Part shown: piece by piece, positions 35,567 to 60,986 of the stretch
Layout of the letters: every line of letters starts with the position of its first letter
Position numbering within the stretch: position 1 is the stretch's first letter
NCBI GenBank assembly: GCA_016521575.1
Contig: JAEKDP010000002.1
Span: forward strand, 658,098-722,097
DNA from: Rhodobacteraceae bacterium F11138
GTDB taxonomy: Bacteria > Pseudomonadota > Alphaproteobacteria > Rhodobacterales > Rhodobacteraceae
Length of the DNA: 64,000 nt
Direction: 5' to 3'
Notes under the pieces: generated by a model
What the model was told of the DNA's origin: nothing
Databases searched by the model: none
What the model saw: only the letters and a program-made list of their open reading frames with translations
Translations under genes and position numbers: made by a program

Positions 35567-36613
35567 CTATGGTGCGCGCGGCATGAAACGGCTGACGTCC
35601 TCGGGGGCGATCTGCACCCGGATCTGCGCCCGAAGCGCCTCCAGGCCGAGGCTCACGAGATCGTCGTTGAAATCCCCCAGCATGGGCGAAAGCGTGATGG
35701 CCTCGATCCCGGCCTCGATGGCCCGGTCCACCAAGCTGTCCCGTGCGGCGTCGCCTGCCGGATCGTTGTCGCGGACGATATAGAGCCTGCGCAGATGCGG
35801 CGGGAACAGGATAGCAGCGAGATGTCCGGCCGAGAGTGCGGAGACCGTCGGCATGATCGGCAATGCCCGCCGCAGCGAGAGGATGGTTTCGATCCCCTCG
35901 CCTGCCGCCATGACATCCTCCGCCTCGCCAAACCGGACGGCGTTTCCGAGCAGGTCTCCCATTGCCTTTCTCGGCGGATCAAGAGGCGCCTTGCCAGAGC
36001 CGTCACGTTGGAGCCAGGTGCGATGCGCGCCGGTGATCTTGCCATCGAGGTCGGTCACCGCGGCAATCATGGCGGGCCATGCCTCTGTCGGCCCATCGCC
36101 GTCGGGTCGCCAGTAGCAGGTCGGATGGAACCGCAGGTTCGCGGTTCCGCGTAAATCCGTAATGCCGCGTCCGCGTAAATACGTCTCCGCGAGGCTGCCG
36201 ATCAATGGCCGGGTCATGCGCCAGAGCCGGCGGGCCGCTTCGGACGATCCGGATGGTGCTGGCGGTGTTCGGGATCGGTGGGACTTTGGCTCCAGCTCGG
36301 GATGCGGCAGGCTTAGGAAGCGGCGGGCTTCTTCGGCGACATCCGCGAAATCGATGAGGCCGAGGCTTTCGCCAATCACGTCGAGCAGATCGCCATGTTC
36401 CCCGCTCTGCGCATCGGTCCATTTGCCGGCCGCGCCCTTGCCCGATTCCGGCCCGGTCAGACGAACGAACATGGAGCGGCCGGGACTGTTCTGCACATCC
36501 CCAACCTGCCAGTAATTGCCCTGTTTGCGCCCATTCGAGAGATAGTGGCGGCACACCGCCTCGGCCTGGAGACCAAGACGCTGCGCCAGCTCGGAAGCGT
36601 TGAGACGTGCCAT
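35567..36613 (-). CDS. Toprim-domain primase-like protein
   Basis: The 348-residue protein has an N-terminal DUF7146-type region (LAQRLGLQAEAVCRHYLSNG, GEHGDLLDVIGESLGLIDFA) and a C-terminal Toprim domain with the catalytic Glu in MAAGEGIETILSLRRALP (about residue 225) and the DxD motif in RRLYIVRDNDPAGDAARD (about 275). No zinc finger is visible. It probably primes or processes plasmid or transferred DNA. The start shares one base with the stop of the methylase-helicase gene (TGATG), so the two are co-translated. Confidence 0.88.
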   Translation of the reverse strand: MARLNASELAQRLGLQAEAVCRHYLSNGRKQGNYWQVGDVQNSPGRSMFVRLTGPESGKGAAGKWTDAQSGEHGDLLDVIGESLGLIDFADVAEEARRFLSLPHPELEPKSHRSRTPPAPSGSSEAARRLWRMTRPLIGSLAETYLRGRGITDLRGTANLRFHPTCYWRPDGDGPTEAWPAMIAAVTDLDGKITGAHRTWLQRDGSGKAPLDPPRKAMGDLLGNAVRFGEAEDVMAAGEGIETILSLRRALPIMPTVSALSAGHLAAILFPPHLRRLYIVRDNDPAGDAARDSLVDRAIEAGIEAITLSPMLGDFNDDLVSLGLEALRAQIRVQIAPEDVSRFMPRAP

Positions 36614-39600
36614 CACGCGGCCTCCCGCTCGGAAATGCGCTCGATCGGGAAACGGTCGAGCAGTTTGCCGATAATCGCCGGTCCCGTTGCATCGACGGGC
36701 ACGAAGAAGCGCAGCTTCCAGGAGATGATCTCGCTGAAGAGACCATAGGTTCGTAGCCGGTCGCGCATGGTGTCGGTGAAGCCGGTGAGTTCGATCCGGT
36801 TCGCGCCCATGACACGCGAGCGTCGCAGCTGCAGCCCCTCGGCGAGATCAAGGATCGTGCGCCCCGCGATCAGCGCGGCATAGGCCCCGTCCGGGGTGAT
36901 GCTGGTCGCAACCCCGCTAGCGGCGGCATTGGCCGCCCATGCGGGCGAGACCCGGCGACCGATGATGCGCTCGCCCTCGTCGGTCTGGAGCCGATAGACG
37001 CGGGAGGAGTCCTGCGGCAGGCGCTTCCAGATCGGCAGCAGCAGCCCGGTCACCATATGCAGGATGCTGTCGGTGAACTCGGGCACTTCGGCCAGTTCCG
37101 CCTTCCAGGCCACGGTGAAAGCGGCACGGTCGGCCTCGATCCAGAGGGTCTCTTCCATCGCCCGTACCGGAATGCTCATCGCCTCCATCGGCCGGATCAA
37201 CCGCACGCGCCGTTCGATCTCGCCATCATCCAGCATCACGCTGGTGGTCGGGATCTGCACGGCGGCACGACCGGACCGCTCGTTGATGAGCAATCTTGCG
37301 CGGGGATCATCCAGTTCCGCCAAGGCTGCATCGAGCGTGACCGGCTGATTGCGCTTGCGTTCGGTGAGCGTCAGGAGCCGCGTTTCGGCACCGGTGCCGG
37401 GATGGGTGTGGATCACCTGCCGGTCGGTGACGATGAAGCTTTCCGCCTTCAGGGTCTCCAGCCCCATGTCATAGGTGCCCGAGGCAATCGCACCGTCGAT
37501 CCGGGCTTCCAGCAATTGCTCGAAGGCCGAGAACAGGATGCCCTGCATCGCGATGGTCAGGGCCAGAAGGCGGTTGAGAAACGTGGTGATCGGCGGCAAG
37601 TCGTCCTTGATGCCGTTCGAGTCCATCAACTTCAGGCCGGTGGCGGATTCAAACCTTTCGAGCGAGCACCCCTCGACCTTGCCGCGCACGATCAGCAGAT
37701 AGAGCTGGCGCAGCGCATCGCGGGCATAGGCGGATTCCAGATTGTCCTCGGGCCGGAACAGGCCCTGACCGCCGGTCTGACGCTGGCCGCGGGTGATCGC
37801 GCCCAGCGTGTCGAGGCGACGGGCGATCGTGCTGAGGAACCGCTTTTCGGCCTTCACATCCGTGGCGATGGGCCGGAACAGCGGTGGTTGCGCCTGATTG
37901 GTCCGGTTGGTGCGCCCCAGCCCCTGAATGGCGGTATCGGCTTTCCAGCCCGGTTCCAGCAGGTAATGCACCCGCAGCCGCTGGTTCCGCGCCGAGAGGT
38001 CCGCGTGATAGCTGCGCCCCGTGCCCCCGGCATCCGAGAAGACCAGGATGCGCTTCTGATCATCCATGAAGGCCGAGGTTTCGGCAAGATTGGCAGAAGG
38101 CGCACGGTTCTCGACTGCCAGGCGTGCCGATGTGCCATCGCCCTTGCGCACGATCCGGCGCGAGCGGCCCGTGACCTCCGCCACCACATCGGTGCCGAAG
38201 CGCTGGACGATCTGGTCGAGCGCTCCCGGGACCGGCGGCAGCGAGCCAAGCTGTTCGAGCATCTCGTCGCGCCGGGCCACGGCTTCGCGGCTTTCGACCG
38301 GCTGCCCATCCCGGAACACGGGCCGCGAGGACAGATTGCCTTCGCTGTCGGTGAAGGGCTCGTAGAGTTGCACCGGGAAGGAATGCTGCAAATACGAGCC
38401 GACATATTCCCGCGGCGTGACATCGACGGAAATGTCGTTCCACTCCTCGGTGGGGATCTCCGCGAGCCGCCGTTCCATCAGCGCCTCGCCGGTCGAGACG
38501 ATCTGGATCACGGCCGCATGGCCCGCCGCCAGATCGGCGTCGATCGAGCGGATCAGCGTCGGGGTTTTCATCGAAGTGAGCAGATGGCCGAAGAAACGCT
38601 GCTTGGTGCTCTCGAAGGCCGACCGCGCTGCGGATTTAGCCTGGCGGTTCAACGTGCCTTCACTGCCGGTGATATTGGCCGCCTCCATCGCCGCGTCCAG
38701 GTTCCCATGGATCACGGCGAACGCCGCAGCGTAAGCATCGTAGATGCGGCGCTGCTCGTCGGTGAGCAGGTGCTCGACCAGTTCGTATTCGACGCCATCA
38801 TAGGAAAGCGAGCGGGCGGTGTAGAGGCCGAGGGACCGCAGATCGCGGGCCAAGACCTCCATCGCCGCAACGCCACCGGCTTCGATCGCCTCGACGAATT
38901 CAGCGCGGGTCTGGAACGGAAAATCCTCGCCACCCCAGAGACCGAGCCGTTGTGCATAGGCGAGGTTGTGGACGGTCGTGGCCCCGGTTGCCGAGACATA
39001 GACCACGCGGGCATCCGGCAGGGCATGCTGGAGCCGCAGGCCTGCGCGTCCCTGCTGCGAAGCGGCGATTTCGCCGCGGTCTCCCTTGCCGCCACCGGCA
39101 TTCTGCATGGCATGGCTTTCGTCGAAGATGATGACCCCATCGAAATCGGAGCCCAACCATTCGACGATCTGCTTGACGCGCGAAACCTTCTCGCCGCGGT
39201 CGTCGGAGCGTAGCGTGGCATAGGTGGTGAACAGGATGCCTTCCGACAGCGTGATCTTTGCGCCTTGAGGGAAGCGCGACAGCGGCGTGACCAGCAGCCT
39301 CTCCATGCCGAGCGCCGACCAGTCGCGTTGCGCGTCCTCGATCAGCTTGTCGGATTTGGAGATCCAGATCGCCTTGCGTCCGCCGCGCAGCCAGTTGTCG
39401 AGAATGATGGCGGCGGACTGGCGGCCCTTGCCAGCACCGGTTCCGTCACCGAGCATGAAGCCCCGTCGAAAGCGGATCGATCCGGCAGCATCCTCTGGCG
39501 CGGCGCTCACAGTGTCGAAATGCTCGTCCACGGTCCATGCGCCGGCGAGATGATCGGCATGGGCTTCACCGGCATAGATCACCGTCTCAAGCTGGGCGTC

Positions 39601-40935
39601 CGACAGACGGGTGCAGATGTCGGCGGGCAGCATGGGCAGGTAGGACGGTTTGGGCGGTGCGACTGAGGCCATGGCGGCGGATTGCACCAGCCTGGTCGGA
39701 TGCGGCTCAGCGCCCGGAATGCGCAACGATTGCAGCGCATATTCCTCATAGATCGCGTCCGACAAGCGCGCGCCCTCGGGCGGCGCCCAGTCCACGGTCT
39801 CATACTCGAGCTCCACCCCCTCGGGATCGGACGCTGGTGCGGCGGCGGGTCGGGACGCTGTGGCGCGAGCGAGATAACCGCGTACGGTCTTCGGGGCAGC
39901 CGCCGGAACGGGAGATGCGACCTTCGGCAGCGAGACCGGCAAGCGCGGCGGAACCTGGCTTTCGATCCAGCCGAGCAGCGTGGCGACGTCGGGTGCGATG
40001 CCCTTTGATGCCGGGAAACATGACGGATCGTCCGCTGGTAGCTTGTCGATGACGGTCAGCCGCGTGTCGATGCTAGTGCCATGCCTGGCAAAGACAGCGC
40101 CATCGATGGCCGCTGTGAAGACCACACGGCCGCGAACCTGCAAGCGCATGAAGGCATCGCGCCAGGCTGGAGCGTCCGGTCCGAAATTGGCGCCGGTGAT
40201 CGTGACCAGCCGCCCGCATGGAGCGAGCCGGGCCAGCGCCGAGGCGACATGACGATACGCAGCATCCGCCATCCGTCCCCCGACATTGGCCATGACCGAG
40301 AAAGGCGGGTTCATCAGAACCACGGACGGCACGGCGTTCGTGGCCAGATGATCGTCGATCTGGGCGGCGTCGAACCGGGTGACGGTAAGGGCCGGAAAGA
40401 GGGAAGAGAGAAGATCGGCGCGGGTCTCGGCGAGTTCGTTGAGGATCAGCGAGCCGCCGGCAGCCTGTGCCAGGATCGCCATCAGGCCGGTGCCCGCCGA
40501 AGGTTCCAGCACCACATCGTCCGGCGTGATCCCGGCCGCCGCCAGCGCAGCAAGGCCGAGAGGCAGAGGCGTCGAAAACTGCTGGAAGCTCTGGCTTTCC
40601 TCGGAGCGGCGGGTCTGCGTCGGCAACAACCCCGCGATCTTCGTCAGAGCATCGAGCCGGGAAACCGGAGAACCGCCTTTGCGGAACAGCGCCTTTCCGT
40701 ATTTGCGCAGGAACAGCACCGTGGCGACCTCGCAGGCCTCATAGGCGAGCTTCCAGTCCCAGGCGCCACTGGCGTCGGACGCGCCGAACGCGGTTTCCAT
40801 CGCACCGCGCAGGATCGCAGCATCGACGCACTGACCGCGTTCGAGATGGGGAAGGATGAGATGGGCGGCGGCCAGGATCGCGGGTGCGGCGCCGACCGGC
40901 GTGACCGGATCGGTCACGGGAGACGAGATGTTCAT
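36613..40935 (-). CDS. DNA methylase-helicase fusion, Strawberry-notch type
   Basis: The 1440-residue protein has an N-terminal adenine-methylase fold (VVLEPSAGTGLMAILAQAAG as the SAM motif, VVLMNPPFSVMANVG as the catalytic NPPF; residues about 140-280). A superfamily 2 helicase of the Strawberry-notch class follows: Walker A MLGDGTGAGKGRQSAAII, DEAH-like GVIIFDESHAMQNAGGG, and motif VI IQGLGRTNRTNQAQPP with the Sno C-terminal domain. Such genes are typical of conjugative elements and large phages and may protect or process incoming DNA; the reaction is not established. The start has GAGGA upstream and lies just after the shared structured leader. Confidence 0.9.
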   Translation of the reverse strand: MNISSPVTDPVTPVGAAPAILAAAHLILPHLERGQCVDAAILRGAMETAFGASDASGAWDWKLAYEACEVATVLFLRKYGKALFRKGGSPVSRLDALTKIAGLLPTQTRRSEESQSFQQFSTPLPLGLAALAAAGITPDDVVLEPSAGTGLMAILAQAAGGSLILNELAETRADLLSSLFPALTVTRFDAAQIDDHLATNAVPSVVLMNPPFSVMANVGGRMADAAYRHVASALARLAPCGRLVTITGANFGPDAPAWRDAFMRLQVRGRVVFTAAIDGAVFARHGTSIDTRLTVIDKLPADDPSCFPASKGIAPDVATLLGWIESQVPPRLPVSLPKVASPVPAAAPKTVRGYLARATASRPAAAPASDPEGVELEYETVDWAPPEGARLSDAIYEEYALQSLRIPGAEPHPTRLVQSAAMASVAPPKPSYLPMLPADICTRLSDAQLETVIYAGEAHADHLAGAWTVDEHFDTVSAAPEDAAGSIRFRRGFMLGDGTGAGKGRQSAAIILDNWLRGGRKAIWISKSDKLIEDAQRDWSALGMERLLVTPLSRFPQGAKITLSEGILFTTYATLRSDDRGEKVSRVKQIVEWLGSDFDGVIIFDESHAMQNAGGGKGDRGEIAASQQGRAGLRLQHALPDARVVYVSATGATTVHNLAYAQRLGLWGGEDFPFQTRAEFVEAIEAGGVAAMEVLARDLRSLGLYTARSLSYDGVEYELVEHLLTDEQRRIYDAYAAAFAVIHGNLDAAMEAANITGSEGTLNRQAKSAARSAFESTKQRFFGHLLTSMKTPTLIRSIDADLAAGHAAVIQIVSTGEALMERRLAEIPTEEWNDISVDVTPREYVGSYLQHSFPVQLYEPFTDSEGNLSSRPVFRDGQPVESREAVARRDEMLEQLGSLPPVPGALDQIVQRFGTDVVAEVTGRSRRIVRKGDGTSARLAVENRAPSANLAETSAFMDDQKRILVFSDAGGTGRSYHADLSARNQRLRVHYLLEPGWKADTAIQGLGRTNRTNQAQPPLFRPIATDVKAEKRFLSTIARRLDTLGAITRGQRQTGGQGLFRPEDNLESAYARDALRQLYLLIVRGKVEGCSLERFESATGLKLMDSNGIKDDLPPITTFLNRLLALTIAMQGILFSAFEQLLEARIDGAIASGTYDMGLETLKAESFIVTDRQVIHTHPGTGAETRLLTLTERKRNQPVTLDAALAELDDPRARLLINERSGRAAVQIPTTSVMLDDGEIERRVRLIRPMEAMSIPVRAMEETLWIEADRAAFTVAWKAELAEVPEFTDSILHMVTGLLLPIWKRLPQDSSRVYRLQTDEGERIIGRRVSPAWAANAAASGVATSITPDGAYAALIAGRTILDLAEGLQLRRSRVMGANRIELTGFTDTMRDRLRTYGLFSEIISWKLRFFVPVDATGPAIIGKLLDRFPIERISEREAA

Positions 40936-41082
40936 ATCGGGGATCCTCGGAGAGCGGGAGGGACAAGCCCGGACGGCGCTCTCTCTCAACCGCCGGGGCT
41001 CAACCCGTCCCGGTCCCTCTCTGACTCTGGAAACGGTGATATAAAAAAGCGCCCCGACCGGATGGTGGAGCGTTTGTCGAGA
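40936..41082 (-). promoter_or_regulatory. Structured leader of the methylase-helicase gene (copy D)
   Basis: On the minus strand 41011-40960 folds as nested stems: GGGAC/GTCCC outside, AGCCC/GGGCT and CGGCG/CGCCG inside, with a loop containing GAGAGAGAG. It shares ACGGGTTGAG and the purine loop with the leaders at 42.8, 46.1 and 48.1 kb. The ribosome binding site GAGGA follows closely. Confidence 0.6.
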
Positions 41083-41727
41083 TCAGCCGAAGCGGCGTCC
41101 GGCGTCGGTGAAGGTGTAGTCGTTGGCGATGATGGTCTCATCGACGACTTCATCCGAGGACAAATAGTCGTATTCGCACTCGAGTTGGCGGTAGAGCCAG
41201 CGGGCGAGATCGCGCAGCGCCTCGCTCACGGTGTCCTCGGCATCGGCGGTCATGTCCTGCCAGCTCGGGCTGTCACGCTCGACCGAGATCGACATGCAGT
41301 ATTCGTGATAATAATGGCCACGATGGCTGGCCTCGGCGCGAAGCTGGTAGAAATTACGCCGCTGGACCGCCTGCAGGGCATCGGCGATGCGGTGCAGCTC
41401 GGTGTCCTGCGGCGCGTATTCCCTGATCCGGCGCGAGGCGTCCTTGCGGTAGGCATAGAAGGTTTCGAAGCACGCGCCATCCCCCTGGCTCCAGAAGCCT
41501 CGAAACCAGATGCAGGGTTCCTGCCGTGTGCCGCCGCCCATTAACCGGACGGTTCGGGTCTTGAGGTTCAACCCGAGGATTTCCGCGATGCGCTGGAAAT
41601 CCTCATAGACCGCATCGTACCAGTCATAGTCGAAGCCGCCCTCACGATACCAAGCGCGGGCCTTGTCTTTCGCCGCATCGGACAATTCGCCCAAGCGATA
41701 GACGGTGGTTTCGATAACCTCAGGCAT
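41083..41727 (-). CDS. Conserved accessory protein, unknown function
   Basis: The 214-residue protein MPEVIETTVYRLGELSDAAK continues with KARAWYREGGFDYDWYDAVY and EDFQRIAEILGLNLKTRTVR. It is acidic and aromatic-rich, with a C-terminal CEYDYLSSDEVVDETIIAND. Databases often label such proteins 'antitoxin of toxin-antitoxin stability system' (from memory), but no toxin gene is adjacent and I cannot support that function. The ATG at 41727 has GGGAGAG 7 bases upstream and lies inside the 3' end of the preceding gene (8-base overlap). Confidence 0.75.
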   Translation of the reverse strand: MPEVIETTVYRLGELSDAAKDKARAWYREGGFDYDWYDAVYEDFQRIAEILGLNLKTRTVRLMGGGTRQEPCIWFRGFWSQGDGACFETFYAYRKDASRRIREYAPQDTELHRIADALQAVQRRNFYQLRAEASHRGHYYHEYCMSISVERDSPSWQDMTADAEDTVSEALRDLARWLYRQLECEYDYLSSDEVVDETIIANDYTFTDAGRRFG

Positions 41728-42136
41728 AGGGATCTCTCCCTTCGAGAACGGAGGAAAGCCAGCCATCGGTATAGATCCAGTCCGGCGTTTCGCCGGTAGC
41801 GAGATTGAGGACATGCGCGCCGCCGCCGAAACCGTCGATTCTCGGCCGAGAACAACTGTTTGCGTATTGAAGGCCCCATAGACCCGTCAGCCCGAACTCC
41901 CTGGCGCAGCGTTTGACGAACTGGATGACATGCTCGGGATCGCCGGTGACGTCGTCACGCATCCAGAGCTGAGTGCCACCATGTTCTGGCTGGATGGAGA
42001 GCAGGAAGCCGTCCGAAGGCGGATCTTCGGCGGCATTGTCACCCGCCAGAGCGTTGTAGAGATCGAGTGCGCGGGCAGCATTTTCGGGGGTGCCCACGTC
42101 AAGCAGGCAAGAAAAGCGCGTGAAATAGTCGGCCAT
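41720..42136 (-). CDS. Conserved accessory protein, unknown function
   Basis: The 138-residue protein MADYFTRFSCLLDVGTPENA has FLLSIQPEHGGTQLWMRDDV, HVIQFVKRCAREFGLTGLWG and a C-terminal TPDWIYTDGWLSSVLEGRDP. It is acidic and looks like a small globular alpha/beta protein. It is translated just ahead of the 214-residue protein with overlapping ends, so the two are probably one functional unit. No family function is known to me. Confidence 0.75.
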   Translation of the reverse strand: MADYFTRFSCLLDVGTPENAARALDLYNALAGDNAAEDPPSDGFLLSIQPEHGGTQLWMRDDVTGDPEHVIQFVKRCAREFGLTGLWGLQYANSCSRPRIDGFGGGAHVLNLATGETPDWIYTDGWLSSVLEGRDPYA

Positions 42137-42201
42137 GATGGTCTCCTGAGAAGACATGGCCCGGCGTGACACCGAGCCGAATGGGATGGAAAGGGTGAAG
42201 C

Positions 42202-42750
42202 TCAGGCGGCCTGTGGCAGGCGGAGCAGATCGGCCGCGGTCTCGCGCCAGAAGGGATCAACCAACCGTGCCTCCAGCGCCGCGGCGCGGTAACGCAGCCG
42301 TCTCGCATCACCGGGCTCCGAGGCTCGGAATGCCATACCGCGCAGTCGGCTGGCCTCGGTCACAATCCTGCGTGCCTCGGCATCGGAGGCGACCGGCTGT
42401 TGCCAGAGGATAATGCCGGCGCGGATTCCGCCGCCTAGGACCAGGCGCTGATCGCGGTCCTGAATGAGCATGATGCGCGGCTGGAAATCCGGAAAGCTAT
42501 TCGGCCCCGTGCAAATATCACCGCACGATAGGCGCAAGGCCGCGGCCTGAATGGCATCTTCCGGTGACGGGCATTCGCCAAGCGGGATCACACGGTCGAA
42601 GCTGTTCGCCGCGTCACTGGCGTCATAGCTGGCCACACCGAGGCAAGAGATGGGCAGCGGCAGCTTTTGCGACCGATAAAGCGCGGGCAGAACATCGGCC
42701 GCCAGAATCTGGCCGATGGGGCGGAAGGTTTCGGAACGGGCAAAGGTCAT
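42202..42750 (-). CDS. Conserved accessory protein, unknown function
   Basis: The 182-residue protein begins MTFARSETFRPIGQILAADV and contains VASYDASDAANSFDRVIPLG, QRLVLGGGIRAGIILWQQPV and a basic helical end LRYRAAALEARLVDPFWRET. I do not recognise a catalytic motif. It is headed by the clearest copy of the shared structured leader (42764-42807), which ends directly at its GGAG ribosome binding site, so its expression is probably controlled together with ParB and ArdC. Confidence 0.72.
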   Translation of the reverse strand: MTFARSETFRPIGQILAADVLPALYRSQKLPLPISCLGVASYDASDAANSFDRVIPLGECPSPEDAIQAAALRLSCGDICTGPNSFPDFQPRIMLIQDRDQRLVLGGGIRAGIILWQQPVASDAEARRIVTEASRLRGMAFRASEPGDARRLRYRAAALEARLVDPFWRETAADLLRLPQAA

Positions 42751-42763
42751 CAGGATCACTCCA

Positions 42764-42807
42764 TGACGGGCGCCGGTGAGCCTCTCTCTCCGGCCCTCAA
42801 CCCGTCA
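42764..42807 (-). promoter_or_regulatory. Structured leader element, copy A
   Basis: On the minus strand TGACGGG pairs with CCCGTCA and, inside, GCCGG pairs with CCGGC around a 13-base loop with AGAGAGAGG. The 3' arm is followed at once by TGGAG, the ribosome binding site of the 182-residue protein gene. Copies B and C keep both stems through G-U pairs. Confidence 0.68.
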
Positions 42808-42949
42808 CGGCCGAAAGGCCCGCACTCTTCCTCTCCGACCGGGCTTGTTCCCGGTTCCGCTGCCGACGATAGGGGACCATCGTGAGCACAGAGGGCCCGA
42901 AGCGCGGGTCTCCGTGCTCGGGCCGTTTGGGATGAGGCGCTGTCGCGCC

Positions 42950-43114
42950 TCAGGCCCATGGATCCAGTTCCAGCTTCACCATGTCCTCATCGCCGTCGAA
43001 CTCGTCGGCGGGCATGACGCCGTGGGTTCCGTCCCCTGCCTGGAACACGACGATTACGACCATCAGCGTGGTGGCGAGGCTGGCGGCGAAGGCGGTGGCA
43101 TCTGCATAGGACAT
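42950..43114 (-). CDS. Small membrane-anchored protein, unknown
   Basis: The 54-residue protein MSYADATAFAASLATTLMVV continues IVVFQAGDGTHGVMPADEFD: one hydrophobic helix (residues 10-25) and an acidic tail. It has AGGAGCC 8 bases upstream of the ATG at 43114, and its leader holds a perfect hairpin, which supports a real gene. No function is known to me. Confidence 0.55.
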   Translation of the reverse strand: MSYADATAFAASLATTLMVVIVVFQAGDGTHGVMPADEFDGDEDMVKLELDPWA

Positions 43115-43534
43115 CGGGATTGGCTCCTGTCTCTGGAGGCGGGGGACCATCCCCCGCGCGACAGGCGCCCGACGTGTCTGACCGGATCTGCACTCACCCT
43201 CGGGCGTTCGGACTAGCTCCGAATCCCCGAGGGCGGCACGCGCGCGTAAGCCGACCCCTCCGGGGTTGAATGTCAAAGTGACGGATCGGACCAAGGTTCG
43301 CGAATGGAAGCGGGGTGGTGTCTTGCATCCGACAGGCGCCGGATACCCCCTTGCAGATGCTTCGCCCGGCCAGCTTTGCCGCCATGCTGGCATCAGGAAT
43401 GTGTTCGAGGACGGGGGCGGACACCGATGCCGAACATGATGAGCGGCACCGTCGTGCAGCTGGAACCGGAGCCATACAGGCCGATGACAGGACGACCGTG
43501 GCGGCTATCGTCAGACGAGGACGGGCCTTCAGTC
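43115..43534. other. Intergenic region with two strong hairpins
   Basis: No credible gene is seen. GCGGGGGA-CCA-TCCCCCGC at 43139-43157 is a perfect 8-bp stem directly upstream of the 54-residue gene. At 43197-43233 CCCTCGGG pairs with CCCGAGGG and, inside, TTCGGA pairs with TCCGAA with a 5-base CTAGC loop. This long stem may be an attenuator or a small RNA; no T-run follows in either direction. Confidence 0.5.
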
Positions 43535-43831
43535 TCAGAGCCCATCGGCGATCTCGCGGGCAATCATCGCGCGCGCTTTCATCATCACGTCGTTGCCGCT
43601 GGTGTCGATATGACCGTAGAACCAGGCATGACCGCCGTTCGCGGTCCAATCGGCGTAGCGGCAATATGCGCGGGCTTCGAGACGGAAGGCGCGCATATCC
43701 TCCGCCCAATGCGGCTTCGGCTCCACCACCGTGATACCGTCGCGGGTTTCCTCCCAGGGCAGCGTGCGCTCCGAAGGCGGGTTGGCGCTGTCCTCGCGGA
43801 AGATCTGGTCAATATCGATAGGTGCGGACAT
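43535..43831 (-). CDS. Small conserved accessory protein, unknown
   Basis: The 98-residue protein MSAPIDIDQIFREDSANPPS has SERTLPWEETRDGITVVEPK and AWFYGHIDTSGNDVMMKARA. It is acidic at the N-terminus and probably globular. The ATG at 43831 has GGAGA upstream. The gene lies 20-40 bases after a terminator hairpin that closes the ParB gene. I do not recognise the family. Confidence 0.6.
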   Translation of the reverse strand: MSAPIDIDQIFREDSANPPSERTLPWEETRDGITVVEPKPHWAEDMRAFRLEARAYCRYADWTANGGHAWFYGHIDTSGNDVMMKARAMIAREIADGL

Positions 43832-43844
43832 CGGATTTCTCCAA

Positions 43845-43872
43845 AGGAAAAGCCCGGTCACGAGGACCGGGC
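43845..43872 (-). terminator. Intrinsic terminator after parB-like gene
   Basis: On the minus strand GCCCGGTC and GACCGGGC form an exact 8-bp stem with a 5-base loop, followed by TTTTCCTTT. It lies 57 bases downstream of the ParB-like stop and just before the ribosome binding site of the next small gene, so some read-through may be intended. Confidence 0.7.
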
Positions 43873-43928
43873 GAGTTGCGGAAACGGAACGGATGAGACG
43901 GGGCAGCGGACGCCGCTCCGTCTGAGGA

Positions 43929-46055
43929 TCATTCGGCAGCGACCACCGACTGCTCCTCGTCTTCCGTGGCGTCTTCATCCTCGCCATCGCCGGCAAGGAA
44001 TTCAGGCAGATCATCCGCCTCTGTGTCGCCCCCGGCATCCATGGCGATATCGGCATCGGGATCGACCATGCGCAGCGGCTCCGGAAGCCAGCCGGTTTCG
44101 GCCAGCAGGCGCTCGGCCTCCTTGGCCATATCGCCCTTCTTCAGATGGTCGATGAGCTGCGCCGCCCGTTCGCCGGCGCCTTCGCGCACCGCCTCGATGA
44201 TCCGCGGCTTGGTCACGCGGCCGAGATAGTTGCCGACGGTCGGCCGCCAGCCCACCGCCACCATGTCGAGGCCCGTTGCCCGCGCCAGCCGGTCGGCCTG
44301 GGACAGGCGCACATCGAGCCCGTGCTGGCTGACGCCCATGCCGCCATAGGGGTTGGGCTTCTCGTGCAAGGCGTTGACGCCGAAGCTGATGCAATGGGCG
44401 AGCAACTCCATGCGGGTGTCGTCGTCCTGATCGGAGAGCCAGCCCCAGAGCGCCGCATCGTCAGCCGGGATGTGATCGCCCCAGCGTTCGTGCCGCTCGG
44501 CGATGGCGCGCGCCGAGACGCTTTCGCCGAGGTCGTCGGCTTGCGCCGGGAAATGAACTTCCCGGACATGGGCCTCGAGGCAGCCCTTGGTGGAGTGCGG
44601 CAGGAAGCAATCGGTGACCAGCCGATGCAGCAGCGCCGTCATCGCCACATGCGGGTTTATCGCCACGGCGTCGCGGAGCGCCAGCGTGCGATGCGCGGTC
44701 AGCTCGCTGACGAGGCGATCGGGCAGAGGCCGGATGATCTCAAGCTCATCCTCCTCCTCGGGTTCTGCCGCCCTACCGCCCACCGTGATGACAGCGCGCT
44801 GCATACCAGCAGACTCGCCGCCCTCGGGAGAACAACCATCGGCACCCTCCCCTTCCTGACCTTCCACAGCCTCGTCGTCGGCACGGACATAGCCGCGCTC
44901 GACGGCGAGCTGGCCGTCATGGCAGATGCTGACAAAGACACCGGCGCGGGCCATCTGATCGGCGTCGTAGCGCATCGGTCGGGTCTCGAAGGCTTCCAGC
45001 GCCTCCTCGATCTCGCCGAGCCGCGCGTCCACCTCGTCGGGCAGTTCGTCGGCCTCGGCATATTGCGCCTCCAACGCGTCGAACTCGTCGCGGAGCTTTT
45101 CGCGCTCGGCGCGTTCCTCGTCGGTCAGGTCGACCGTGGTGCCGGCCATGCGACGCATGCCGCTGGTATGACCATAGGGGAAATCCACCGCGACCTCGAT
45201 CCACTTCCAGCCTTCGCCGGCGATCGTCTCCGCCTCGGCCTTCAGCTTCTCGCCGGCCAGCCGGTCGAGCAGCACCGGCTCCTGGAGCCAACCGCCATCG
45301 TCCTGCTGGAAGAGATCGCGCAGCACATAGCCGCCCGCCGCCTCGTACGCCTCGATGCCGACAAAGAGCGCTCGCTTGTCGGAGGCGCGCACCGTGGTCT
45401 CGGTCAGCATGCGCCTGATGGTATAGGGCTCCTTCTGCCAGCCATCCTTGATCGCCTCCCAGACCTGTTCCTGCCGGGCATGGTCGTCGGAGACGGTGAA
45501 GGCCATGAGCTGTTCCAGCGTAATGCCGTCCCCGGCATAGACATCGAGCAGCGACGGCGAGACCGAGACCAGGCGCAGACGCTGCTTCACCACCTTGGCG
45601 TCGACGAAGAAGGCGGCGGCGATTTCCTCTTCGCTCATGCCCTTCTCACGAAGGACCTGGAAGGCGCGGAACTGGTCGAGCGGATGCAGCGGCGCGCGCT
45701 CGATATTCTCGGCCAGCGAGACCTCGTCGATCAGGATGTCGTCACTGGCCTCCGAGACGATACAGGGCACCGGCGTGGTCTTGTTCAGGCGCTTCTGTTT
45801 GACCAAAAGCTCCAGCGCGCGATAGCGGCGGCCGCCAGCCGGCACCTCGAAAAGGCCGGTTTCCTGACCGTCGGCGTCGAGCTCGGGCCGGACATGCAGG
45901 GACTGGATCAGCCCGCGCCGGGCGATGGACTCGGCCAGTTCCTCGACCGAGATGCCGGCCTTCATTCGCCGGACGTTGGACTGGCTGAGCACCAGCTTGT
46001 TGAAGGGGATGTCGCGCGAGGACGACAGGGTGATCTTCTGAGTGGCAGTGGCCAT
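43929..46055 (-). CDS. Large ParB/Spo0J-like DNA-binding protein
   Basis: The 708-residue protein has the ParB N-terminal CTP-binding/nuclease-like domain (IPFNKLVLSQSNVRRMKAG, LAESIARRGLIQSLHVRPEL, VPAGGRRYRALELL, and ENIERAPLHPLDQFRAF) and a helix-turn-helix part (GMSEEEIAAAFFVDAKVVKQ then RLRLVSVSPSLL). The remaining ~450 residues are acidic and include a long helical stretch. It is much larger than chromosomal ParB (about 300 residues) and no ParA is encoded in the window. A KorB-like role as a regulator binding many sites is a reasonable alternative to partition. Headed by structured leader copy B. Confidence 0.88.
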   Translation of the reverse strand: MATATQKITLSSSRDIPFNKLVLSQSNVRRMKAGISVEELAESIARRGLIQSLHVRPELDADGQETGLFEVPAGGRRYRALELLVKQKRLNKTTPVPCIVSEASDDILIDEVSLAENIERAPLHPLDQFRAFQVLREKGMSEEEIAAAFFVDAKVVKQRLRLVSVSPSLLDVYAGDGITLEQLMAFTVSDDHARQEQVWEAIKDGWQKEPYTIRRMLTETTVRASDKRALFVGIEAYEAAGGYVLRDLFQQDDGGWLQEPVLLDRLAGEKLKAEAETIAGEGWKWIEVAVDFPYGHTSGMRRMAGTTVDLTDEERAEREKLRDEFDALEAQYAEADELPDEVDARLGEIEEALEAFETRPMRYDADQMARAGVFVSICHDGQLAVERGYVRADDEAVEGQEGEGADGCSPEGGESAGMQRAVITVGGRAAEPEEEDELEIIRPLPDRLVSELTAHRTLALRDAVAINPHVAMTALLHRLVTDCFLPHSTKGCLEAHVREVHFPAQADDLGESVSARAIAERHERWGDHIPADDAALWGWLSDQDDDTRMELLAHCISFGVNALHEKPNPYGGMGVSQHGLDVRLSQADRLARATGLDMVAVGWRPTVGNYLGRVTKPRIIEAVREGAGERAAQLIDHLKKGDMAKEAERLLAETGWLPEPLRMVDPDADIAMDAGGDTEADDLPEFLAGDGEDEDATEDEEQSVVAAE

Positions 46056-46068
46056 GTCAGTATCTCCA

Positions 46069-46112
46069 TGACGGACGCCGGGGAGCCTCTCTCTCCGGCA
46101 ACCAGCCCGTCA
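46069..46112 (-). promoter_or_regulatory. Structured leader element, copy B
   Basis: On the minus strand TGACGGG pairs with TCCGTCA (the last pair is G-U) and GCCGG with CCGGC around a loop holding AGAGAGAGG. The 3' arm runs directly into TGGAG, the ribosome binding site of the ParB-like gene. The same two stems occur in copies A and C. Confidence 0.66.
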
Positions 46113-46171
46113 CGAAGCCCCCACCCTCCTTTCCCTCTCTAGGCCGAGCCGCGGATGAACGCGCAGACCCA

Positions 46172-46660
46172 TCAGAGCTCGCCGCGGGCGCTCAGGCTGG
46201 TCTCCCGGCCAGCCCCGGCTATGATGTGGTCGTGCAGTATCACCCCCAGGGACGCACAGGCGTTTCGGATTTCCTTGGTCATCGCGAGGTCGGCCGCCGA
46301 GGGCTCAGGATCGCCGGCCGGATGATTGTGGACGATGATCAGCGCCGAGGCATTGAGCGCCAGGCAGCGCCGAAGCACCTCCCGAGGATAGACCGGGACA
46401 TGATCGACCGTGCCGATGGCGAGGCATTCGTCAGAGATCAGCCGGTTCCTCCGGTCGAGATAGAGGACATGGAAGCGCTCCACATCACCTCTGATGGTGA
46501 GGGCGCAATAGTCGAGCACCGCCTGCCAGGACGACAGGACAGGGTTCTGATTGAGGTGGCGCAGCAGGATCTGCCGGGCCTCGTAGACTACGGCCTGCTC
46601 CTGGGCCGAGAACCGGAGCGGCTGTGCTTCGATGGCGGGTGTTCTCGTGTTTCGTATCAT
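46172..46660 (-). CDS. radC: RadC-like JAB-domain protein
   Basis: The 162-residue protein has the JAMM metal site: HNHPAGDPEPSAAD (His111, His113, Asp124), preceded by FHVLYLDRRNRLISDECLAI, and ends LGVILHDHIIAGAGRETSLS. This is the MPN/JAB domain of RadC; the usual N-terminal helix-hairpin-helix part is shortened. RadC-like proteins are common in mobile elements beside ArdC; the reaction is unknown. The start at 46660 follows GGAG; a degenerate copy of the shared leader lies upstream. Confidence 0.9.
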   Translation of the reverse strand: MIRNTRTPAIEAQPLRFSAQEQAVVYEARQILLRHLNQNPVLSSWQAVLDYCALTIRGDVERFHVLYLDRRNRLISDECLAIGTVDHVPVYPREVLRRCLALNASALIIVHNHPAGDPEPSAADLAMTKEIRNACASLGVILHDHIIAGAGRETSLSARGEL

Positions 46661-46673
46661 GGTGCTGTTCTCC

Positions 46674-46712
46674 GACGGGCAGCCGGCCGGGCGCCGAACT
46701 TTCACCGCGTCA
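46674..46712 (-). promoter_or_regulatory. Degenerate copy of the structured leader (copy E)
   Basis: On the minus strand GTGACGCGG at one side and CCCGTC at the other keep the outer ends of the shared leader, and the ribosome binding site GGAG follows the 3' arm directly. The inner stem differs from copies A-C, so this copy is less certain. Confidence 0.4.
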
Positions 46713-46770
46713 CGAGGAGAAGCGCCGCCCTCTTCCTTCGAAGAGCGCGGCGCGGAACCTGCAGAACCCC

Positions 46771-47166
46771 TCAGGAACGCGGGGACTCCGTGTCGAGGCG
46801 TGTTCCGCCTGACAGGCGGCCCGAGCGATAAAGCAGGCGCTCGGCATCGCGAATGCTGCCGGTTTCGCGGGCGGTCTCGGCCCAGACCGAGATCGGCACG
46901 TCCCCCGTGAACAGCAGATCCCGCTCGATACCCATGCCGAAGGGCAGCCGGATCGAGCGCAGTTCATTGAGGCTCCAGGAGCCAAGCTCGGGGTAGCCAA
47001 TGTCGGCCAGTCCAAACATGATGTCGCCGTCCTCGTCGAGCTCGGTCGCGAGCCAGACACCGGCGCCAAAGGGATTGAAGAACTTCACGACCGGAATGTG
47101 GTCGGTATTAGCCTGGCGACCATTGGCCAAAAGCTGCGCACGTTGTGACGCCGTCAGGAGGATCAT
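46771..47166 (-). CDS. DUF2958 protein
   Basis: The 131-residue protein MILLTASQRAQLLANGRQAN contains VVKFFNPFGAGVWLATELDE, DIMFGLADIGYPELGSWSLN and LPFGMGIERDLLFTGDVPIS, the DUF2958 family. It is a constant neighbour of ArdC and RadC in mobile elements; the function is unknown. Its start overlaps the ArdC stop by 4 bases (ATGA), so it is translated with ArdC. Confidence 0.93.
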   Translation of the reverse strand: MILLTASQRAQLLANGRQANTDHIPVVKFFNPFGAGVWLATELDEDGDIMFGLADIGYPELGSWSLNELRSIRLPFGMGIERDLLFTGDVPISVWAETARETGSIRDAERLLYRSGRLSGGTRLDTESPRS

Positions 47167-48125
47167 GCCGCAGCCCTCCCTTCCGTCGAGGTCTGCCGCT
47201 CAACATCGGTGCTGTCGTCAGGCAGATGGGCCAGCAGCCAGTCGGCCGCCTTGCTGGCCTGCGAGGCTGCACGTACGATGGCGCGGGAATCCTCGCGCAT
47301 CACCTCCAGCCAGGAGCCGATGTAATCGGCGTGGCGCACCGTCGGGACGATCCCAAGCGAGGCGCAACAGAACGCGCTCGAAATCTCGGCGATCAGTTCC
47401 TCGAAGGCGTATTTCTTCGTGCCGAAACCGCCCGAGAAGTCCCGCCCCAACCGTGAGGCATGTCCAGTCGCGTGCCCCATCTCGTGCAGTGCGGTCCGGT
47501 GCCAGTTGATCGGCTCAAAATAAGCCTGCGGAGGTGGCACCTGCACATAGTCGAGCGCGGGGACATAGAAGGCGCGGTTACCACCGATCCGGAAGTCGAT
47601 ACCGGTCGCCGCGATCAATGCCTCGACCCGCGGCTCGATCAGCCCGGGCGGCGGTGGCGGTGCCTCGACGGCGATGTCGTCGGGCAGACCCTCGCATTGC
47701 GCCGCGTTGAACACGGTGAAGCGCTTCAGGAAGGGGATGCTGTTTGCGTCCTCCCCGGTCTCCCGGGCGCGGCGCTTCTCGTCTTCAGGCGTGAAACGGT
47801 CGGCATAGACGACGGTTGTGCCCCGCTCACCCTTGCGGACATTGCCGCCGAGCGACAGCGCCTGGCGGAAGGTCAGCCAGTGCTGGGTTGGATAGCCCTG
47901 CTGGATCACGGCGCCCCAGAGGATCAGGACATTGATCCCGGAATATTGCCGACCCGTGCTGGCGTTGCACGGCATGGCGAGCGGCGCCTGAACCGCCGCC
48001 GTTCCCCAGGGCTGGACCCAGGGCAGCCGGCCTTCCTCCAGCTCGGCGATGATCTTGTCGGTGATGTCGTCATAAAAGTTGGTGCGCGGGCCGCTTTTGC
48101 GGGCCGCGTGATGCTCACTGGTCAT
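47163..48125 (-). CDS. ardC: ArdC-type antirestriction protein
   Basis: The 320-residue protein has an N-terminal ssDNA-binding domain (YDDITDKIIAELEEGRLPWV, NASTGRQYSGINVLILWGA) and a C-terminal zincin-like metallopeptidase domain with HEMGHATGH at residues 214-222 and a downstream Glu (AFEELIAEISSAFCC). ArdC proteins protect incoming single-stranded element DNA from host restriction; a peptidase activity has been suggested. It is headed by structured leader copy C. Length and motifs are normal. Confidence 0.94.
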   Translation of the reverse strand: MTSEHHAARKSGPRTNFYDDITDKIIAELEEGRLPWVQPWGTAAVQAPLAMPCNASTGRQYSGINVLILWGAVIQQGYPTQHWLTFRQALSLGGNVRKGERGTTVVYADRFTPEDEKRRARETGEDANSIPFLKRFTVFNAAQCEGLPDDIAVEAPPPPPGLIEPRVEALIAATGIDFRIGGNRAFYVPALDYVQVPPPQAYFEPINWHRTALHEMGHATGHASRLGRDFSGGFGTKKYAFEELIAEISSAFCCASLGIVPTVRHADYIGSWLEVMREDSRAIVRAASQASKAADWLLAHLPDDSTDVERQTSTEGRAAA

Positions 48126-48485
48126 CGGGATGATCTCCGCGACGGGCGCCGGAGGCCTCTCCTCCAGCCCTTAACCCGTCACGGAAAACCCGCCCGCACT
48201 TTCACTCTCAGGGGGCGTTGCGGGGTCTCCCCGCTGATGGGGGTGTGTCGGCAACGCCAGTGCCGACCAGGGGGAAGGCTTTCCCCCAGACAATCCTCGC
48301 ATTCAGCCGAGCCAGGCATAAAGGGGCAAAAGCCACCACTCGCGAGCCCCAACCCCCGACGTGTTGTAATCCCCAGGAGATCTGCGCTTATCTGACTCGC
48401 AATCGCGGTGCCTGCTTTGCAGCGCCAGACGCCTTCCTTCCTGAGGGCTCGGGCTCAAAGCCAACGGGCAATAAAAGAGGACCAG
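48126..48485. other. Divergent intergenic region between ardC and the H-NS gene
   Basis: Besides leader copy C at 48140-48181, this region holds GTCGGCA and TGCCGAC around a 7-base loop (48247-48267) and GGGGGAA-GGCT-TTCCCCC (48270-48287), both exact stems. They would lie upstream of the H-NS gene. No small gene is convincing here. GAGG just before 48486 is the H-NS ribosome binding site. Confidence 0.5.
48140..48181 (-). promoter_or_regulatory. Structured leader element, copy C
   Basis: On the minus strand TGACGGG pairs with CCCGTCG (the first pair is U-G) and GCTGG with CCGGC (one U-G pair), around a loop with AGGAGAGG. The 3' arm is followed by CGGAG, the ribosome binding site of ardC. 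The base changes keep the pairing, which argues for a selected RNA structure. Confidence 0.67.
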
Positions 48486-58916: not shown

Positions 58917-60986
58917 CTAAAGTTTAACAACTTCAGGAAAGAAGGATGCAATCTGGTCAGCCTCTTCCTGACTTTTCATCAAACGAACACATACGAGACT
59001 TTTCTTTGCTCGCGAACAGGCAACATAAAAAAGTTTCCTTGATGAAATTTCTCGCTTTGAAACAGGTACGCCCTTTGAAAAGCAGCTCACGAAATCATAC
59101 TCCGTCGTCCAACCATACTCGTCGATAACGAGAAGCACGTTTTCGATGCCTGTGCCTTTCGTTTTGTGCATCGTGGAAAACTCGCTTTCATTGTCCTCAT
59201 ACTCGTAGAACGCCAATACCTCCCTCAGCGGGAGATCTATGGAAAACAAAGAATCTAGAAACTCCTTTTGCTTCAGATCATTTAACCTTTCATCGTATTC
59301 CTGCTCCAGCATATCGACGGTGATATGCTTTGCACTCGTGGCAGCCACCTCTTTTGACATTTGGAGTTTGGTATGGTGGCCGTTCCGGTGTAGTTCTTCA
59401 AACTCGGAAAAAACAGGATCATCTGCAAGCTTTGCCAAAAGCTCATTGCGCCGATCTATTAAATCCTTGTGGCTGTCTGAAACTTTTATCAAACCACATT
59501 CGGCGGCATACTCTATGGCCTCATAGGCGGCGCGATCCTTCGACCCGAACGAGTGAAGCATTTCATTGAGCTTGGCCTTATCCGCCACTGACGCAATAGA
59601 AAATCCGCGCTTCCGTAGTTTCGCGATCAAGCGGTTATATGAGCGCCTGTCGCCCGGCAAACTTCTGTATAGAGCAACCAGGTCAATCAGCTCGCCAAAC
59701 TGTAACCTGTCAAGCATCTTGCGCATGCGATCCCGTGGTTCGGAGTATCGATCATCAAAGATCTGATATAGCCTTCCAAATCCGACATCGTTCGCAATCG
59801 ATTTATTCGTCAGTTTCAACTGAACGTAGCCCGGATACTCAGTGGCGGACCTTTCAACCAACGCATCAAGTGCACTTCTGAACAAGACGGTATTTGTCTT
59901 CCGGTCTTCCGCCTTGTCGCCAGTATCAATCTCCGCAGGAGCCAAGTCGTACACCAGCTTCACGCTACCCTGGCGACTCTCAAGGGTTTCAAGGGCTCCA
60001 TCATCAAGCGATTTCAGTGCTACATCCTGCTTTAGACCGTCCGTCCGAAATTTATTGCTAAAATCAATAACCTGGGGGGAGCACCGATAATTATCTTCCT
60101 TCTCGACAAGAATAAGCTCTTTGGCATCGATATGTGACTGAGCGCTTCCTATACCATCCGAATAGATGGCCTGTTCGGAGTCGCCGAACAGGCCTATGAT
60201 GGTCTTCGCGTCTTCAGGCAAACAGCGCAGAAGGACGCGAACGACATCTGCACTTGTGTCCTGATACTCATCGATAAAGATGCAGTCGTGCCGATCTGAT
60301 ACGATCCTGCCCAGCAGCGGGAAGCTTTCAAATATGTGGCAGGCCAACGCGATCAAGCCGTCATGGCCGAATGAAGGATCGTTGAAGCTGTCAAAGGCAG
60401 TATCATTGTAGAAAAACTCGTTCGGCTGTCTCGCCGCCAGCTTGTCGCGGATTGCCTCGTTGACCTCGCCGATCAACCCATTTAGCTGCGCAATGTATGT
60501 GCCGGGTTCCTTGTCGTATTCCCGCTTTCCGGTGACCTTCGCAGTATCCTCACCGAGTACCGTTCTGCGGCGATTTTCGAGCTGGCCGTGCGCCTTCTTG
60601 AACCGGTCGTGCTCCTCCTTCTTCTTCACCTTTTCGTCGCCGTTATAGTGGTTATCTCCAAGGGCAACAAACTCGGGTAATTCGAAGAGCTTCGGAAAAA
60701 CCTGCTGGATGTTCTTCTTGAACGGCGAAATAATCTCGCCCAGGAACGAGTGAATTGTTGAAACCTTGATATCGCTGGATACACGATCAGCAATTTCGTC
60801 TGCTGCTTTGTTCGTATGAGTGATGCACGCAATACGGAGGCTTGGATTGGCCTTCAGAACCTTTTGAACGACTCTTTTCAGACTCTCTGTCTTTCCACTT
60901 CCGGCCCCGCCTTGAAGAACGAAGTTCTCGCTGCCGGAAACGAGCTCTGCGATCCGATCTACCGGATTCAGTTTTCGTGAATCCAT
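58917..60986 (-). CDS. UvrD-like helicase, second Gabija-like pair
   Basis: The 689-residue SF1 helicase has Walker A VLQGGAGSGKTESLKRV (residues 23-39), IACITHTNKAADEIADRV, HDCIFIDEYQDTSADVVRVL (about 235), GLFGDSEQAIYSDG, NYRCSPQVIDFSNKFRTDG, and STMHKTKGTGIENVLLVIDE with YVACSRAKKSLVCVRLM at the end. All SF1 motifs are present. The start overlaps the upstream OLD gene by 19 bases. It is only distantly like the helicase at 18.3-20.2 kb. The DNA is visibly AT-richer than the backbone, which suggests separate acquisition. Confidence 0.88.
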   Translation of the reverse strand: MDSRKLNPVDRIAELVSGSENFVLQGGAGSGKTESLKRVVQKVLKANPSLRIACITHTNKAADEIADRVSSDIKVSTIHSFLGEIISPFKKNIQQVFPKLFELPEFVALGDNHYNGDEKVKKKEEHDRFKKAHGQLENRRRTVLGEDTAKVTGKREYDKEPGTYIAQLNGLIGEVNEAIRDKLAARQPNEFFYNDTAFDSFNDPSFGHDGLIALACHIFESFPLLGRIVSDRHDCIFIDEYQDTSADVVRVLLRCLPEDAKTIIGLFGDSEQAIYSDGIGSAQSHIDAKELILVEKEDNYRCSPQVIDFSNKFRTDGLKQDVALKSLDDGALETLESRQGSVKLVYDLAPAEIDTGDKAEDRKTNTVLFRSALDALVERSATEYPGYVQLKLTNKSIANDVGFGRLYQIFDDRYSEPRDRMRKMLDRLQFGELIDLVALYRSLPGDRRSYNRLIAKLRKRGFSIASVADKAKLNEMLHSFGSKDRAAYEAIEYAAECGLIKVSDSHKDLIDRRNELLAKLADDPVFSEFEELHRNGHHTKLQMSKEVAATSAKHITVDMLEQEYDERLNDLKQKEFLDSLFSIDLPLREVLAFYEYEDNESEFSTMHKTKGTGIENVLLVIDEYGWTTEYDFVSCFSKGVPVSKREISSRKLFYVACSRAKKSLVCVRLMKSQEEADQIASFFPEVVKL

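Follow-up and report, generated by a model that had tools for sequence, protein, structure and literature searches.

A putative structured RNA leader without an Rfam match precedes a recurrent set of mobile-element genes in Alphaproteobacteria

The window analysed here is a stretch of 64,000 nucleotides (nt) from Rhodobacteraceae bacterium F11138 (contig JAEKDP010000002.1, positions 658,098 to 722,097) and harbors a conjugative backbone with genes for a TrbE-type ATPase, TrbL, TrbI, a type IV secretion system (T4SS) coupling protein and a DUF3363 relaxase, together with a T2SSE-type ATPase, which is read as TrbB-like, an RPA initiator and a toprim protein. According to the original prediction, made from the letters of the window, one structured leader recurs on the minus strand in front of at least four backbone genes and ends at the ribosome binding site. 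This observation is real and is confirmed here; as judged from sequence comparison, it appears to belong to a structured RNA leader that is widespread and matches no Rfam family. Among the copies, A, B and C fit this leader strongly and E weakly; D is a distinct conserved variant. The parts of A, B and C and the genes beneath them are given below, where P1 and P2 denote the two nested helices, SD the Shine-Dalgarno sequence and aa amino acids.

42747..42849, minus strand: leader copy A, whole model match, 95.0 bits
42825-42834, minus strand: box of copy A, AGAGGAAGAG
42807-42801, minus strand: P1 5' arm of copy A around TGACGGG; its P1 3' arm is CCCGUCAUGG
42762-42759, minus strand: SD GGAG of copy A
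42202..42750, minus strand: gene for an unknown 182-aa protein, under copy A
46052..46153, minus strand: leader copy B, 77.0 bits
46129-46138, minus strand: box of copy B, AGAGGGAAAG
46067-46064, minus strand: SD GGAG of copy B
43929..46055, minus strand: gene for a ParB_N-domain protein, 708 aa, under copy B
48123..48222, minus strand: leader copy C, 100.2 bits
48199-48208, minus strand: box of copy C, AGAGTGAAAG
48138-48135, minus strand: SD GGAG of copy C
47163..48125, minus strand: ArdC gene (ArdcN and MPTase-PolyVal), 320 aa, under copy C

The motif TGACGGG is found at 42807 in A, 46112 in B and 48181 in C, with arms and loops as described before. Folding of 100-111 nt around each of the copies A-E gave the same nested hairpin for A, B and C, composed in each case of P1, a 5-nt bulge confined to the 5' side and P2, a different fold for D and a shorter, related one for E. 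The 3' arm continues into AUGGAG in A and B and into GCGGAG in C, followed by ATG. The pattern of the arms with a variable middle, GTGACGGGnT-N10-30-GGCnCCCGTC, has two matches in the window, which are A and C, and none in 100 shuffles; the loop word GGAGAGAGAGG by itself occurs at chance frequency. No Pfam or NCBIfam family was matched by the 182-aa protein at E <= 0.001, and its AlphaFold2 model, with a predicted local distance difference test (pLDDT) score of 87.9, matched no fold in the PDB at E <= 0.001.

A covariance model (R1, E-values of which are rough) was built from 22 copies and used to search relatives, as had been proposed along with the original prediction, and the leader was found widely. 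The 137 and 100 matches obtained yielded 211 distinct sequences, of which two gap-rich ones were dropped for the covariation analysis (209 copies). On the mRNA the element would comprise, in this order, an AGAGnnAGAG-like box, a linker of about 12 nt, P1 with its 5-nt 5'-side bulge, a P2 cap and an AGAG loop. It is thus longer than first described: the hairpin running into the SD stands as predicted, and conservation sets in some 30 nt before the GACGG core. In 195 aligned flanks this onset is abrupt and coincides with the box, the positions -260 to -41 containing 0.04-0.10 bits per column, no A+T peak and no conserved promoter at a fixed upstream position. The first AGAG of the box is present in 179/211 copies and the second in 160/211. 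With a loose pattern and a narrower stretch, the start of the box falls 27-30 nt ahead of GACGG in 181 of 188 copies (27 copies at 27 nt, 116 at 28, 20 at 29 and 18 at 30); with a stricter pattern 88 of 107 are located at 27-29 nt and 19 elsewhere (11 of them at 14 nt), and six copies are listed without a box. The P1 core is GUGACGGG/CCCGUC, its bulge reads most commonly UGAGG (54/211), P2 consists of 8 modelled pairs and the loop contains AGAGG in 130/211 or AGUGG in 48/211 copies. RYGGAG is part of the P1 3' arm and is followed by ATG. A further 5' hairpin at the box (P0), seen in single folds, is weakly supported and is not claimed (arms -14.8 kcal/mol with their own partner, -13.1 kcal/mol swapped and -12.8 kcal/mol shuffled).

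Covariation was assessed by a simplified R-scape-like test, in which an average-product-corrected (APC) G statistic is compared with a null of substitutions redistributed along a FastTree tree. Covariation above background, the lack of which would have counted against the original prediction, was found in the hairpin: the top four of 4,753 column pairs are P2 pairs, and a two-set E < 0.05 is reached by 4 of the 21 tested structure pairs, all of them in P2. Of the events placed on the tree, 44 keep a pair by a double (compensatory) change and 261 by a single one, whereas 104 break a pair and 34 restore one. An earlier run with 118 copies (3 truncated rows left out), now superseded, likewise placed P2 pairs at the top. 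Among 121 distinct rows, 93.7% of the cells are paired compared with 87.9% in shuffles, and 19 of 22 pairs show changes on both sides; none of 500 shuffles is as high on any of five measures, and slid registers reach at most 48.9% paired. The arms of P2 pair perfectly with their own partner in 65% and with a swapped partner in 17% of cases (72 distinct pairs, 0/2,000 permutations). Furthermore, G-U cells exceed A-C cells on the mRNA strand by 567:43 in P1 and 225:42 in P2, and the calculated fold energy is -31.1 kcal/mol for the sense and -20.8 kcal/mol for the antisense strand, the sense strand being more stable in 98% of 200 copies. A single-stranded DNA (ssDNA) structure on the template strand predicts the reverse of this bias in G-U content and stability, an RNA the bias that is found; the G-U excess on the mRNA strand argues that the element acts as RNA and not as a promoter on the DNA template strand. 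The cis-acting structured RNA that had been proposed is thus supported by the covariation, by the asymmetry of G-U pairs, by the greater stability of the sense strand and by the near-fixed distance between SD and ATG, and comparison of the copies establishes both a predicted structure and its probable strand.

The base of P1 contains the SD GGAG, which lies 7-9 nt from the start codon in 186 of 195 called genes and in 84 of 85 genes of a pattern-found set; all called starts are ATG, which the gene caller favoured (195 genes). In 150 distinct arm pairs the SD-facing arm pairs better with its own SD than with swapped ones, none of 5,000 permutations being as stable, and the same holds when swaps are restricted to gene families (0/5,000). 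CCC faces GGGAG in 10/12 and GGAG in 9/136 cases, the GGGAG copies possibly representing one lineage. Within the hairpin folded in isolation, 117 of 208 copies have the complete four-letter SD paired and 183 have at least two of its letters paired. In windows of 140 nt the mean unpaired probability of the SD is 0.24 for 191 copies versus 0.32 for 82 control genes, and values below 0.25 are found for 55% of the copies versus 32% of the controls (p = 0.001). These results support occlusion of the SD. Comparison of the copies therewith indicates a probable pairing of the SD within a conserved helix at a near-fixed distance from the start codon, as is characteristic of SD-sequestering translational leaders; this correspondence is weaker for the DUF932-like group introduced below. 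In annotated plasmid loci (17 copies, from PLSDB gene tables that are incomplete) five copies start 16-25 nt after the upstream gene, and leader B starts 18 nt after the end of the radC open reading frame (ORF), so that some copies lie inside operons; the short gaps of the five annotated copies lend indirect support to transcription of the leader together with its gene. Eight terminator-like sites were detected in 40900-48400, none of which overlaps A-E, and an attenuator is accordingly not supported at these copies; two promoter-like sites were also detected, neither at a copy.

Downstream ORFs were callable for 195 of the 211 copies and were grouped by BLASTP single linkage, the families being named from scanned members. 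Four families cover 193 of the 195 genes, namely ParB-like (80), DUF932-like (48), ArdC (34) and an unknown family (31), with two other genes; the name DUF932-like derives from sub-threshold Pfam matches (E 3e-4 to 0.015) and annotations. Ten of the 16 copies without a gene call have 132 or fewer bases left in their locus, and the other six have more sequence and no ORF of 50 codons at the expected place. The same four families also account for 83 of 85 genes in the pattern-found set, although some species may be common to both sets; the other two genes lie at a locus end. Comparison shows that the downstream genes form a small recurrent set, as would be the case for a regulon and in agreement with the proposal that they are controlled together. 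In 88% of cases, versus 27% expected, a leader and its nearest relative in another locus (<90% identity) stand before genes of one and the same family; leaders therefore seem to have mostly travelled with their genes and not to have been recently copied between them. Seven class-draw genomes have a single match; the leader is followed by a ParB-like gene in five of them, by a DUF932-like gene in one and by no called gene in one. ArdC-N domains have been proposed to protect entering ssDNA (PMC5512222), which is in keeping with a function of some of these genes in establishment.

R1 matches were obtained in 20/289 genomes of the alphaproteobacterial class, 62/295 genomes of the family and 21/249 genomes of a phylum draw, each draw counting the window's own genome; all 21 phylum-draw matches are labelled as own, same class or same family. 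With leader A as blastn query 122 plasmid records were matched at E <= 1, and with copy C 84 plasmid records at E <= 0.001; no phage record was matched by copy C. The exact pattern was absent from the viral contigs scanned, and a pattern scan of named genomes returned at least 120 stretches; among 80 matches listed, 76 bear names recognised as Alphaproteobacteria and four are named 'Proteobacteria bacterium'. In the own genome five matches at E <= 1 were found: the copies A, B and C, copy E as a weak match, and a further leader on contig C27.

This extra leader (C27:114330-114428, loci L212 and L342, 48.2 bits) precedes the gene of a 769-aa ParB-like protein, the C-terminal part of which resembles, by eye, a separate 214-aa protein of the window (41083-41727), as if both were fused. 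The family-draw genome G528 contains 13 leader matches and shows on its contig C1 three equal-score pairs about 93.55 kb apart, which suggests a duplicated element.

In order to relate the leader to known RNAs, Rfam 15 was searched, a check that had likewise been proposed. No match above a gathering score was present in the window, consistent with the earlier failure to name a family; in eight further loci there were two gathering-score matches, one to tRNA and one to a group II intron, both away from the copies. A permissive search of the window gave GHRLOS (15 bits over D, far below the cut-off) as sole match overlapping a copy, and that of 10 loci gave two sub-cut-off matches, neither at a copy. 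In titles and abstract openings among the literature matches listed, the leader is not described, the 224 motifs of a 2017 survey being compared only through Rfam. The radC RNA (RF01754) precedes radC and DNA-handling or antirestriction genes and was the first candidate considered; it fails the 40-bit gathering cut-off and its consensus differs. No RF01754 match at E <= 10 was found in 40900-48300 and none over the cut-off in the whole own genome, where the best match (20.5 bits, E 0.16) lies elsewhere. Like the leader, RF01754 is a cis-regulatory candidate in Proteobacteria (PMC2864571); unlike the leader, it has 149 positions and another consensus and structure. The STAXI motif often occurs near genes for SSB, integrase, topoisomerase and antirestriction proteins (PMC2864571, Weinberg 2010), but is a pseudoknot repeated two or three times, whereas the leader is a single SD-pairing hairpin with an upstream box.

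Leaders that sequester the SD are known from CsrA targets, ribosomal-protein leaders and ROSE thermometers, and share with the present element a translation start site built into a hairpin. They differ from it in that the gene set of the leader is a mobile-element backbone and that no Rfam family exceeds its cut-off at a copy. A CsrA/RsmA target leader was considered and was rejected for this host, in which CsrA was not found: PF02599 is absent from the own-genome search and exceeds the cut-off in the E. coli, B. subtilis and T. maritima controls. GGA occurs in the box stretch of 53% and around the P2 loop of 76% of the 211 copies. As an SD-closing leader the element is of a known kind; its architecture and gene set are new.

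Taken together, we consider it probable, at roughly 0.65, that the element is a translational control leader common to a mobile-element regulon and worked by a factor that reads the AGAG motifs. By default the SD GGAG would be base paired within P1 and initiation would be low. A candidate factor, either a protein or a small RNA (sRNA), the gene of which most probably resides on the element or in its usual hosts, would read the AGAG motifs and shift this balance, and would in this way set the translation of all four gene families together. A reading in trans is suggested because the motifs are conserved in both box and loop, outside the supported pairing. The low default expression, the existence, identity and sign of action of the factor, the timing in the recipient and any role in establishment are inferred. 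Of the earlier interpretation, the structured cis-acting RNA and its recurrent gene set are thereby retained and the attenuator is not. Tentatively, and with a good deal less confidence, the scheme may be extended to one element-encoded RNA-binding factor that holds translation of the regulon shut in the resident cell via the AGAG motifs; on entry into a factor-free cell the whole block would be translated at once, amounting to translational zygotic induction across Alphaproteobacteria. How plasmids and integrative and conjugative elements (ICEs) time their burst of establishment and antirestriction proteins is known mainly from F-like plasmids and their ssDNA promoters (partly PMC11541004). 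A widespread covarying RNA that matches no Rfam family and accompanies a small, fixed group of genes on elements across a bacterial class makes translational control of such genes directly testable, provides in its AGAG motifs a handle for finding the regulator and ties two uncharacterised families, the unknown one of about 170-190 aa and the DUF932-like one, to ArdC and the ParB-like protein in one gene set.

Several results weigh against the proposed translational control. No trans factor was found, and a simple word search of the window revealed no clear CU-rich partner: CTCTnnCTCT occurs at 41019 and 42825, where it is the complement of the boxes of D and A, and a single further occurrence lies on the minus strand at 40568. 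In the isolated hairpin at most one SD letter is paired in 25/208 copies, the predicted closure of the SD in 140-nt windows is modest, and the 47 DUF932-like copies, at 0.39, show no stronger closure than the controls. For twelve of the 17 annotated copies the upstream gene is 40-887 nt away, and four of these twelve follow a gene on the opposite strand; these copies therefore need a promoter, which was not found. With regard to the structure itself, only the pair 60-72 reaches E < 0.05 when all pairs are considered (E 0.03), the next three P2 pairs having E 0.9, 1.2 and 3.1. The near-invariant P1 core tests little, and P1 pairs are mostly unscorable because they are too invariant. The alignments A3 and A4 were moreover fitted to the R1 structure, and related sequences and cells in them are not independent.

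Two alternatives would place the function in DNA. In an Frpo-like ssDNA promoter, a hairpin of the transferred strand would recruit RNA polymerase and the establishment genes would be read at once in the recipient. Such hairpins (Frpo/ssi) of conjugative plasmids are described before establishment and anti-defence genes (PMC11541004), and the theme of ArdC, RadC and ParB-like proteins resembles the leading regions in which they lie. With the consensus from that paper (-35 TTGACA, -10 TATAAT), a -35-like hexamer with at most two mismatches is present in 211/211 copies on the sense and 165/211 on the other strand, but a good -10 is lacking: the best TATAAT has at least two mismatches in 208/211 sense and 209/211 antisense sequences (at most one mismatch in 3/211 and 2/211), so that the -35/-10 combination of Frpo was not found. 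Contrary to Frpo, the structure resides on the sense strand, with the template strand folding worse in 98% of 200 copies and G-U exceeding A-C on the sense strand, and the SD lies within the helix, so that a transcript beginning there would be missing half of it. A hairpin on the template strand was accordingly rejected and such a promoter is very improbable. The same low credence is given to a double-stranded DNA (dsDNA) operator, in which the inverted repeat TGACGGG...CCCGTCA would be bound by a repressor, for instance the ParB-like protein. The near-invariant halves and the preference of single-match genomes for the ParB-like gene (5/7 leaders) would be compatible with an operator, but several basal P1 pairs change on their 3' side mostly by steps that G-U pairing permits while the 5' side is near-fixed, P2 covaries and the ATG is held at 7-9 nt in 186/195 genes. 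Both DNA readings are disfavoured by the strand tests.

The remaining alternatives accept an RNA and assign it another role. The hairpin might be cut, or might protect the mRNA, between the genes of an operon, its overlap with the SD being incidental; a strong stem is a plausible barrier to RNase III or E, and the five intercistronic copies among the 17 annotated ones, with their gaps of 16-25 nt, would suit such a processing or stability element. Stability alone, however, requires neither the better fit of the SD-opposite arm to its own SD, which holds within gene families too, nor the near-fixed ATG distance, and this explanation is regarded as unlikely. A small-molecule riboswitch or RNA thermometer, in which ligand or heat would open P1 with no trans factor involved, would account for an SD-closing hairpin with a conserved loop, and the asymmetric 5-nt bulge could form part of a ligand pocket. 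Against this stand the 193 assigned downstream genes, which fall into four families with no metabolic theme, the absence of an Rfam family over the cut-off at any copy and, for a thermometer, a helix of about -31 kcal/mol, which is generally unlikely to melt at growth temperature; a probability of one in ten or so seems adequate here. Least credible is that translation of a short upstream ORF (uORF) ending at the TGA of GTGACGGG opens P1. It appeared promising in A, B and C, each of which contains an in-frame GTG by eye, and an in-frame ATG or GTG is found within 45 nt in 101/186 copies versus 24/186 in one other frame, the third frame (176/186) being filled by the GTG of GTGACGG itself. The uORF is nevertheless absent in 85 of the 186 copies, and the spacing between box and helix varies by single nucleotides, which would break the frame; it was rejected on these grounds.

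The two divergent copies of the window and their genes are located as follows.

46658..46754, minus strand: leader copy E, degenerate, 20.7 bits
46172..46660, minus strand: RadC (JAB domain) gene, under copy E
40933..41028, minus strand: variant leader D, with box AGAGTCAGAG at 41019-41028 and a hairpin with GAGAGAG loop
within 40933..41028, minus strand: pyrimidine tract, SD-like GAGG and ATG, following the hairpin of D
36613..40935, minus strand: gene for a strawberry-notch family NTPase/helicase (AAA_34 and Helicase_C_4), 1440 aa, under D

Copy E had rightly been called degenerate: it matches the model weakly (E 0.0071 in one search and 0.08 in the own-genome search), has a near-identical counterpart in one relative (L032, 15.5 bits) and is treated as a decayed leader. 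For D the arrangement of box and hairpin proved to be conserved, but the covariance model does not detect it. A pattern of the box followed by a D-type hairpin retrieved 11 distinct sequences from the fetched DNA, including that of the window, and strawberry-notch is the identified next gene in three of them. Differences within the D-type stems are partly compensatory by inspection. In D the SD lies outside any P1-like stem, the pyrimidine tract separating it from the 3' arm.

Further features were noted close to the leaders. A terminator-like hairpin, GCCCGGTCCTCGTGACCGGGC-TTTTCC, is located at 43852-43872 on the minus strand, a short distance downstream of the ParB-like gene and directly before the ribosome binding site of an ORF of 98 aa. 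A 54-codon gene at 42950-43114 (minus strand) has a parallel in an annotated coding sequence of 165 bases in a similar neighbourhood of several plasmids (L041 11746-11910, L042 11748-11912, L046 8147-8311 and L048 15119-15283). The conjugation and leader region is flanked by two Gabija-type pairs of GajA and GajB (16171-20168 on the plus and 58917-62998 on the minus strand), the best PADLOC matches of which have E 1.4e-194 or better, and an IS91-type transposase gene (Y2_Tnp and zinc-binding domain, 20603-21796, minus strand) lies beside the first pair.

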